From: a virus
IMG/VR virus record: IMGVR_UViG_3300000117_000371
Location: 1-20,165 of that record
Reading direction: 5' to 3' (one strand)
Length of the DNA stretch: 20,165 nt
Positions 1,441-2,955 of the stretch are shown here, one piece after another. Below the pieces are notes generated by a model. That model ran no database searches. It was not told the DNA's origin and saw nothing but the letters and a program-made list of their open reading frames with translations. The translations under genes were made by a program, and so were the position numbers. How positions within the stretch are numbered: the stretch's first letter is position 1; every line of letters starts with the position of its first letter.

Positions 1441-1478
1441 TATCCAGTACCTGTCTGTTTTACACGTTTTCGCATGAG

Positions 1479-1508
1479 TCCCCTAACTTAAGTATACAGA
1501 TGAGGGGA
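1479..1508 (-). other. Hairpin in the 5' leader of the leftward transcript
   Basis: A 6-bp inverted repeat (TCCCCT at 1479-1484, AGGGGA at 1503-1508) encloses 18 bases that contain the palindromes CTTAAG and GTATAC. It lies between the predicted transcription start near 1544 and the terS start at 1440, so it would fold in the leader RNA. It has no T-run and is not a terminator. The loop is long, so significance is uncertain. Confidence 0.3.
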
Positions 1509-1550
1509 TCTATACGAACCCTTTACTAGTAATACTTAATATCTGAATAT

Positions 1551-1579
1551 ATTATATCATACTTTTATCTAGAAGTCAA
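1551..1579 (-). promoter_or_regulatory. Near-consensus sigma-70 promoter for the leftward (terminase/lysis) unit
   Basis: On the minus strand TTGACT (1574-1579) is followed by exactly 17 bases and then TATAAT (1551-1556). A TG one base before the -10 makes it an extended -10 promoter. That is 11 of 12 consensus bases at optimal spacing in an AT-rich context. Transcription should start near 1544 and give a leader of about 100 bases before terS. Host RNA polymerase with its housekeeping sigma factor should read it directly. Confidence 0.82.
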
Positions 1580-1780: not shown

Positions 1781-1815
1781 CCCCGGCCCCCGGTACCCTA
1801 AAGAACCCCACCCCC
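1781..1815 (-). other. G-quadruplex-type motif
   Basis: The plus strand has five C-runs: CCCC 1781-1784, CCCCC 1787-1791, CCC 1796-1798, CCCC 1806-1809 and CCCCC 1811-1815. The minus strand therefore carries five runs of three or more G with loops of 1, 7, 4 and 2 bases, which meets the usual G-quadruplex rule. It directly abuts the DnaA-box cluster. Folding is a prediction from pattern only. Confidence 0.5.
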
Positions 1816-1825
1816 AAGGCCGAAG

Positions 1826-1873
1826 TTATCCACAGGTTGTCCACAGGTTGTCCACAAGCCCGAGTTATCCACA
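1826..1873 (+). promoter_or_regulatory. Cluster of four DnaA-box sequences, same orientation
   Basis: The perfect box TTATCCACA occurs at 1826-1834 and 1865-1873, and the variant TTGTCCACA at 1837-1845 and 1848-1856. All are on the plus strand. The first three start at an 11-base pitch and the fourth 17 bases after the third. TTATCCACA matches the high-affinity bacterial DnaA consensus TTATNCACA; the variants differ at one position. The cluster sits in the only large intergenic gap, beside an AT-rich stretch. It could be a DnaA-dependent origin, a DnaA-controlled promoter element or a DnaA titration site. Confidence 0.78.
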
Positions 1874-1934
1874 GGGTTACGAAAGGTAACACAGGTAACA
1901 CGAGTGTGGGGACCAGAGAAGTACCCTCTGGACT

Positions 1935-1999: not shown

Positions 2000-2049
2000 T
2001 TGTCAACTATTTATTGTTGGTAATATCCACACAAAAATAATTGTTGACA
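2000..2049 (+). promoter_or_regulatory. Candidate rightward promoter area with a 7-bp inverted repeat
   Basis: TTGTCA (2000-2005) and TAATAT (2021-2026) resemble -35 and -10 elements, but the spacing is only 15 bases. A perfect TTGACA follows at 2044-2049 without a good -10 at normal distance; the closest, TAGATA at 2072-2077, is 22 bases away. TGTCAAC (2001-2007) and GTTGACA (2043-2049) are exact inverted repeats and each covers a possible -35, so a dimeric regulator could act here. Some promoter must lie here for the early genes, but which elements are used is uncertain. Confidence 0.4.
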
Positions 2050-2120: not shown

Positions 2121-2381
2121 ATGAGCAACGATACATACAACGGATGGAAAACCTTTGAAACTTGGCAGGCTTCTCTGTGGCTCTCAGAGGCTGATACACT
2201 GGGGCGACTACAGGCTGACAGTTGGAAGCGGGTAGACGCTGAGGACGTCGAGAGCTTCGTCTACGAGCTTATCGAGGGCCAAGAAACCCAAGGTCTGATG
2301 GGAGATATATTCAACAGTTGGATTTCGTGCGTCAACTTCCACGAGATAGCGGATCACTACAACCAAGATTTAGAGGGTTAA
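2121..2381 (+). CDS. Small early protein of the NGW-x-x-x-ETW type (DUF7249-like), function unknown
   Basis: This 86-residue protein is encoded by the first gene of the rightward unit, with a GAGGG ribosome-binding site 9 bases or so before the ATG. It opens with YNGWKTFETWQASLWLSE (6-23), a pattern I recall from small phage and plasmid proteins with the consensus NGW-x-x-x-ETW-x-x-x-LW; DUF7249 is the name I would expect from a domain search. The remainder is acidic and probably helical. First position after the control region suggests very early expression, but the biochemical role is not known and I do not propose one. Confidence 0.8.
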   Translation: MSNDTYNGWKTFETWQASLWLSEADTLGRLQADSWKRVDAEDVESFVYELIEGQETQGLMGDIFNSWISCVNFHEIADHYNQDLEG

Positions 2382-2516: not shown

Positions 2517-2752
2517 GCAAGATGCCGTGTAGTATTACTGACGACCCCCTTAACGACTACAGCCACTGGTACGAACGTACAGGGCCTTACGCACGCATAC
2601 CGTACCTAAAGAATACGAGCATGTGTGAAGGGTGCTACCAGTTAGTTGATAAGGTAGATGAAGACACTGGTTACTGTTCCGAGTGCCAATCAGACCACGA
2701 AGAAGAGCAGTTTTACAAACACGTAGCAGATAACTGGGGAGTGGAGTTGTGA
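2513..2752 (+). CDS. Small zinc-ribbon-like early protein
   Basis: This 79-residue protein has two CxxC pairs, Cys38/Cys41 and Cys55/Cys58, separated by 13 residues. That is a zinc-ribbon or treble-clef-like arrangement that usually binds zinc and often serves protein or nucleic-acid contacts. An acidic stretch (DHEEEQ) follows and the ends show no known domain. The start overlaps the membrane-peptide stop by ATGA, with GGAGC upstream. Its stop overlaps the GTG of the sigma-like gene, so the three are probably translated together. Many phage early proteins of this kind modify host enzymes, but the target here is unknown. Confidence 0.78.
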   Translation: MSKMPCSITDDPLNDYSHWYERTGPYARIPYLKNTSMCEGCYQLVDKVDEDTGYCSECQSDHEEEQFYKHVADNWGVEL

Positions 2753-2955
2753 AAGAGACAGAGCAGGGAAACCTAAAACCCATGACGTACAGGCAAATCG
2801 CAGAGGTCTTGGGCATATCGCCCGAGTCCGTCCGTGCCATCGAGTTCAAGGCGCTACGGAAGCTACGCAGCCAAGGAAAACTTGACAAGTTCCGTGATAT
2901 GTGTGACGGTACATGGCGTGATGAAGATAAAGGCGTAGGGAGAAATACCAAATGA
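2749..2955 (+). CDS. Sigma-70 region 4-like HTH protein
   Basis: The gene encodes 68 residues from a GTG start that overlaps the previous stop (GTGA), with GGGGAGTGGAG upstream as ribosome-binding site. Residues about 12-41 (MTYRQIAEVLGISPESVRAI followed by EFKALRKLR) match the helix-turn-helix of sigma-70 region 4.2, including the usual motif of a helix, GIS turn, SVRxIE recognition helix and ALRKLR end. Regions 1-3 are absent, so this cannot be a complete sigma factor. It could contact -35 DNA, the beta flap of host RNA polymerase, or both, and so redirect transcription. A simple DNA-binding repressor is the alternative. Position among the early genes and the lack of a phage RNA polymerase in the window fit a transcription-control role. 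Confidence 0.8.
   Translation: MKETEQGNLKPMTYRQIAEVLGISPESVRAIEFKALRKLRSQGKLDKFRDMCDGTWRDEDKGVGRNTK

Follow-up and report, generated by a model that had tools for sequence, protein, structure and literature searches.

What do four DnaA boxes in tandem do in the control DNA of a phage whose replication genes are of the T7 type? The boxes lie in a window of 20,165 bases (the whole stretch of DNA that was analyzed, IMG/VR virus record IMGVR_UViG_3300000117_000371). The initial annotation, made from the sequence alone, had offered three answers: a DnaA-dependent origin, a trap that titrates host DnaA or a DnaA-regulated promoter.

The phage group

The window is probably a fragment of a phage genome; near-complete relatives measure ~36-39 kb, and several of these close on themselves at their ends. 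It encodes a T7-type replication module of gp2.5-like SSB, primase-helicase, family A polymerase and endonuclease I, and to this extent the phage can be called "T7-like", as it was at first. The label does not extend to the terminase, for which the T4-like Terminase_6N/6C Pfam models are the best match, nor to the tail adaptor, which is of the SU10 type. The reported lack of a phage RNA polymerase was borne out, as none occurs among the window proteins scanned. A T7-type RNA polymerase (PF00940) was likewise not found in ~80 records of relatives and array-bearing contigs (many of them fragments, several contigs of 36-39 kb), while the Roseobacter phage CRP-361 was matched as positive control. 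The sole exception is G061, an array-bearing record from outside the phage group of the window. A DnaA gene was found in none of the group records searched, again many fragments and several contigs of 36-39 kb.

The group consists of uncultured marine podoviruses. All loci compared are environmental contigs, and the named relatives are remote: orf1030, next to the boxes, has no close named phage, and the tail protein shares only 22-30% identity with named phages. Assignment of a host from binned contigs was tried and rejected, as the matches in genome collections were MAG contigs of unrelated phyla and could not be trusted.

The four-box array and its control gap

The boxes belong to what is here called the slot, a stretch of ~50-250 bp within the divergent control gap of this podovirus group. 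The features of the gap and its flanks are the following.

1030 to 1440 (start at 1440), minus strand: orf1030, the conserved left flank of the slot; AT-hook-like, without family assignment
1551 to 1579, minus strand: predicted leftward sigma70 promoter, TTGACT-17-TATAAT (11/12), for orf1030, endolysin and terminase
1806 to 1815, plus strand: C-rich tract CCCCACCCCC at the left slot edge; most homologous slots have a C-tract
1826 to 1834, plus strand: DnaA box 1, TTATCCACA; kept in L001, L004, L008 and L009
1837 to 1845, plus strand: DnaA box 2, TTGTCCACA; relatives carry TTTTCCACA or TTATGCACA
1848 to 1856, plus strand: DnaA box 3, TTGTCCACA; exact TTRTCCACA match
1865 to 1873, plus strand: DnaA box 4, TTATCCACA; exact TTRTCCACA match
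1876 to 1890, no strand: palindrome GTTAC-N5-GTAAC, directly right of the DnaA boxes
1884 to 1901, plus strand: AGGTAACAC repeated twice in tandem; L004, L007, L008, L009 and L052 have 3-4 copies
2000 to 2030, plus strand: conserved TTGTCA...GGTAATATNCAC element; weak match
2121 to 2381, plus strand: orf2121 (DUF7249), the first early gene right of the slot

The initial annotation described four boxes in one orientation, three of them on an 11-base pitch, and both points were confirmed: the boxes start at 1826, 1837, 1848 and 1865, all on the plus strand, with start-to-start spacings of 11, 11 and 17. They are the only exact TTRTCCACA sequences in the 20,165 bases, for which ~0.3 matches per whole window are estimated by chance. 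The control-region setting is supported too, since orf1030 (minus strand, start 1440) and orf2121 (plus strand, 2121) diverge from a 680-nt gap that contains the array. The AT-rich stretch that was said to adjoin it is near rather than adjacent. The array itself is a local GC-rich island (52-55% GC), and AT-rich DNA is found 100-300 nt to its left (1501-1700, 31% GC) and ~130 nt to its right.

Several other elements of the gap recur in relatives. Of 122 homologous slots, 112 have a C-tract at their left edge, mostly 10-30 nt ahead of the first site, and the palindrome GTTAC-N5-GTAAC occurs in six slots (0.1 expected). The AAAAGTCAAG element of the leftward sigma70 promoter is conserved across the group, and the TTGTCA...GGTAATATNCAC element is possibly a rightward early promoter or operator. 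Judged by its position, orf1030 is possibly the small terminase subunit. The leader between the leftward promoter and orf1030 (1441-1579, minus strand) is strongly conserved and can form a GTTCGTAT...ATGCGAA stem; the fold of this leader hairpin is not significant (z = -1.4), and Rfam gave no matches. Further to the right, orf2749 (2749-2955, plus strand) encodes an early protein of 68 aa; it contains a sigma70 region 4 domain and could address the host RNA polymerase.

Conservation of the boxes and their likely ligand

In relatives with 93-96% primase identity the array sits 360-386 nt from the orf1030 start, and its middle boxes read TTTTCCACA, TTATGCACA or the like. When the collection was scanned for three boxes on an 11-bp pitch, at least 120 stretches were obtained; an orf1030 homolog is present in 31 records among the matches listed, with the array beside it in most. 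Measured against the refuting condition named in the initial annotation (boxes not conserved in close relatives), box conservation holds for the closest clade but not across the whole group.

The array has 4 boxes in the window and up to 13 in relatives. The pattern of variation was analyzed in 51 box-bearing slots; as these slots were chosen for having boxes, the variation pattern and not the box density is the evidence. The orientation of the 260 boxes is 233:27. Their spacings are multiples of ~11 bp, among which 11, 12, 21, 22 and 33 dominate. Of 109 one-mismatch variants, 47 are changed at position 5 and 27 at position 3, the degenerate positions of TTWTNCACA that are tolerated by DnaA. 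Mismatch positions, orientation, spacing and conserved place indicate that the sites are under selection as DnaA-type sites, as their first description implied. Since the substitutions fall where DnaA tolerates them and the orientation and spacing are constrained, host DnaA is likely to be the ligand of the array.

Other regulator sites in the same slot

Repeats were first noticed in box-free slots. Fixed patterns were then counted in 122 homologous slots and compared with dinucleotide shuffles; the loci are related, so the counts are not independent. TTATCCACA is found 165 times (1.5 in shuffles). The sigma54 pattern TGGCAY-N5-TTGC is found 76 times (0.3 in shuffles) and only 0-1 times with any other spacer, and 76 of the 81 copies in ~1 Mb fall inside slots. 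At the bases on which the search did not depend, 93% of the sigma54 sites have a T before TGGCA and 95% an A or T after TTGC. These flanking bases match the known sigma54 consensus. Fur palindromes with up to 3 mismatches number 51 (0.1 in shuffles), and LexA sites (CTGTAT-N6-ACAG) number 10 (0.33 in shuffles, with spacer controls at chance). In addition, five alpha-type Zur cores (0 in shuffles) and three FadR cores, all in one slot, were counted, while sites for CRP, FNR, PurR, ArgR, MetJ, TrpR and NtrC were absent from the 122 slots. The IHF pattern WATCAANNNNTTW occurs 57 times over all 122 related slots (9.8 in shuffles) and is not tied to the DnaA class. Overall, 78 of the 122 slots hold a recognized site class; the other 44 have no known class, and many of them hold lineage-specific tandem repeats.

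Because the site classes had emerged from inspection of the slots, the counts were repeated on a held-out set of 88 loci that were collected later, using two other terminases as queries. Sigma54 (124 versus 1.15 in shuffles) and LexA (19 versus 0.7) recurred in counts that are blind. DnaA (103 versus 0.95) recurred in a count that is not fully blind, because one query terminase and its near copies came from array-found contigs. Fur sites were few (3 versus 0) and CRP sites mildly enriched (6 versus 0.45). Zur and FadR sites did not recur in the 88 loci, and each of them stems from a single lineage.

These counts also bear on the simplest explanation, that the array is a product of chance or assembly. 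Apart from recurrent contig breaks in the slot, nothing points that way. The observed counts are ~100x those in shuffled sequence and the same array is found at the same place in independent assemblies, by which this explanation is refuted; we give it practically no weight.

The arrangement of the sites differs among lineages. Tandem sigma54 (-24/-12) elements lie upstream of orf1030 in L013, L015, L057, L282, L311, L314 and L340 and are also found in L519-L530 and L569, with up to 9 per slot. In several slots the sigma54 elements form convergent pairs on a 54-bp period. Fur palindromes of the AATGAGAATCATTCTCATT type occur in L368, L383, L387, L388, L399, L410 and other slots of the G026 clade, where they sit between two DnaA-box clusters; in L312 and L340, Fur-box palindromes are located at a start codon. 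The L270 slot combines three FadR-like (CTGGTCAGACC) with three LexA-like sites, and the slots of L359, L360 and L362 carry palindromes (ATGTTATAACATATCA) that resemble alphaproteobacterial Zur boxes. Lineage-specific tandem repeats fill the slots of L349, L350, L385, L420, L417, L030 and L302, with examples such as ATATAGAAAACAT (seven copies on ~23 bp), GTATACAGTATAC, GTCTTATATAAGAC, GGTAATATTCAC (four copies) and GCACCATTGGGGC.

Turnover of the slot content

In terminase-based samples that were not selected for boxes, arrays are present in ~40% of the covered gaps and absent from the rest. On a tree of 104 terminases the presence of the array needs 22 changes by parsimony, at least 13 of which are forced by well-supported branches. 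Identical terminases even occur both with and without a DnaA array. The switch can be seen in two loci, L289 (ten boxes) and L294 (sigma54 sites), that are 94% identical over 1.7 kb; the identity ends at the first box. The array is swappable cassette content and not a fixed feature. A partner gene for the DnaA class was not found across lineages, the best association (14/34) being one clade.

This turnover weighs on the origin reading, according to which host DnaA would melt the region and the T7-type primase-helicase and polymerase would start there, DnaA thus taking the place of the T7 RNA polymerase transcripts. The window does combine T7-type replication genes, no RNA polymerase, consensus boxes arranged head to tail on an 11-bp pitch and AT-rich stretches within 100-300 nt. 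In the window, G026, G036 and G049 the cumulative GC-skew also reaches its minimum at the array or close to it, a signal that is confounded because gene orientation switches at the same place. However, a DnaA-trio-like run within 60 nt is found in 0 of 40 arrays, and an AT-rich (at least 75%) 40-mer directly 3' of the last box in 0 of 40. Close sisters, some with an identical terminase, have no boxes, and the sigma54, Fur and LexA sites that take their place are unsuited to an origin. The array-free sisters and the missing trio and adjacent AT-rich element weaken the origin among the three options first proposed. The idea that DnaA replaces the T7 RNA polymerase loses ground as well, because arrays are also carried by polymerase-bearing phages (the T7-like Berlinvirus and G061). 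A simple conserved DnaA origin was rejected as the general function of the slot, given the identical-terminase sisters that lack boxes and have other sites. As a function of the DnaA class alone, we consider an origin unlikely on the whole.

Another option is a roadblock at the genome end where array-bound host proteins would pause the entry or packaging of DNA, as proposed for T5. In one clade several contigs end within the slot, and Stenotrophomonas phage Salva and Berlinvirus A7 have their arrays inside or close to a terminal repeat or the end of the genome. For the injection stop signal of T5, a combination of repeats, palindromes and DnaA boxes has been described (PMC13250531), yet only one consensus box was found there in our box scan. 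Moreover, contigs cross the slot freely and end at several places of the genome, breaks in the slot can come from its repeats, and low-abundance ligands such as sigma54 would make poor roadblocks. The map can be closed to a circle through head-tail overlaps of 123-2092 bp, and such overlaps, like the repeats, would also account for the clustering of contig ends. We consider a roadblock very improbable.

A proposed decoy or a possible operator

DnaA, Fur, LexA and the sigma54 holoenzyme all bind stably to short consensus sites, mostly as repressors. Our preferred reading, which we hold tentatively and at somewhat less than even chances, is that the four boxes are the DnaA version of a swappable cassette that would capture host proteins (decoy or titration). 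The sequences themselves show that the sites exist, that they are enriched and phased, and that the slot content switches; the proposed mechanism would proceed as follows. The slot would hold clusters of near-consensus sites to which one or two host DNA-binding proteins bind; in the window, host DnaA would bind the four boxes cooperatively. As the phage genome is copied, several hundred boxes per cell may accumulate and pull DnaA off the host oriC and off DnaA-repressed promoters. With DnaA depleted, re-initiation in the host would be restrained and repression lifted, to the benefit of the phage. Other lineages would follow the same scheme with other regulators. The several copies per genome, the near-consensus quality of the sites, the convergent sigma54 pairs (poor promoters that would fit as binding sites) and the rapid exchange appear to suit a decoy best.

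Some observations speak against a decoy. With four boxes per genome, many phage copies are needed before DnaA is depleted, and a protein as abundant as Fur could hardly be titrated by one to three boxes. The strict head-to-tail order on 11 bp exceeds what a decoy needs, and the slot always lies between divergent promoters, the place of ordinary operators.

The last two points agree with a second reading, in which the slot is an operator or sensor of the host state: host DnaA (Fur, LexA or sigma54 in sisters) would tune the flanking divergent promoters according to host physiology. The slot is flanked on the left by the leftward sigma70 promoter, which is strong and conserved, and on the right by the early genes; many sigma54 arrays face only early genes (L291, L294, L312 and L340). 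As no phage RNA polymerase was found in the group records searched, transcription is presumably carried out by the host enzyme, which also counts for a sensor. A precedent is found in cyanophage genes under host PhoB, with EMSA support (PMC10976474). On the other hand, the array does not directly overlap the leftward promoter (~250 nt away) or the rightward element (~130 nt away), and convergent sigma54 pairs would work poorly as promoters. None of the first 122 slots contains a classic activator site (CRP, FNR), and no early gene tracks the DnaA class across lineages. We therefore regard an operator as a doubtful, though serious, alternative to the decoy.

If the decoy reading is correct, phages, which are known to change their hosts mainly via proteins, would have a protein-free way to hold back host replication, to relieve iron, SOS or other repression, or to read the state of the host. 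A site cassette of this kind would be invisible to gene-based annotation. The sites in the slot would also point to the regulators, and hence to the host groups, of uncultured phages. The broader proposal, that a widespread group of uncultured podoviruses uses site arrays exchanged by recombination as DNA decoys and reprograms the host without an encoded protein, is made with slightly more reserve than the reading of the four boxes.

Comparison with known systems

A report of an exchangeable multi-regulator cassette was not found in the literature searched, with subscription journals mostly outside its coverage. DnaA-box arrays as such are not restricted to this group. Berlinvirus and Eapunavirus (both T7-like) and Salvavirus carry them within or close to terminal repeats or the genome end. 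The following examples, several of them at such positions, come from cultured phages, including T7-like ones with an RNA polymerase.

Escherichia phage nasanit, 4078 to 4129: DnaA-box array
Shigella phage VB_Ship_A7, 80 to 142: DnaA-box array
Enterobacter phage NJ2, 15765 to 15812: DnaA-box array
phiEap-1, 142 to 176: DnaA-box array
Stenotrophomonas phage Salva, 596 to 639: DnaA-box array
Arthrobacter phage Tiff81, 50435 to 50482: DnaA-box array

A high-GC (63-67%) viral lineage, unrelated to the window in its proteins, has a near-invariant four-box array with spacings of 11, 11 and 12 (L082, L105, L109, L110, L121, L129, L131, L139 and other contigs). Clusters of DnaA boxes are also present in the non-coding DNA of Microviridae (PQ006258.1, MG945484.1 and other records).

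T5, Salva, Berlinvirus A7 and phiEap-1 resemble the window in having non-coding phage DNA with DnaA boxes, in Berlinvirus next to the terminase gene. Their boxes are placed within or close to terminal repeats or the ends of the genome, whereas no terminal repeat is apparent at the slot of the window. The bacterial oriC shares the intergenic, head-to-tail consensus boxes on an 11-bp pitch; in contrast, the 40 phage arrays are without a DnaA-trio or directly adjacent AT-rich element, and sister phages lack the array.

The nearest published case of host-regulator sites in phage control DNA is that of the host PhoB boxes in cyanophage promoters (PMC10976474). There, single sites for one regulator serve individual genes, whereas the slot holds multi-site arrays for unrelated regulators that are swapped. 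The datA locus and other chromosomal DnaA-titration loci likewise have high-affinity DnaA boxes clustered away from oriC, where they could sequester DnaA. At datA an IHF site drives DnaA-ATP hydrolysis; in the phages, IHF-like sites are enriched over all slots and not tied to the DnaA class. The array of the window is carried on a multicopy phage genome and is interchangeable with sites for other host regulators. Finally, multicopy plasmid operators draw a host repressor away in the operator-repressor titration of biotechnology. Compared to this engineered scheme, the slot is natural and located on a phage, and its putative ligand is DnaA or sigma54.
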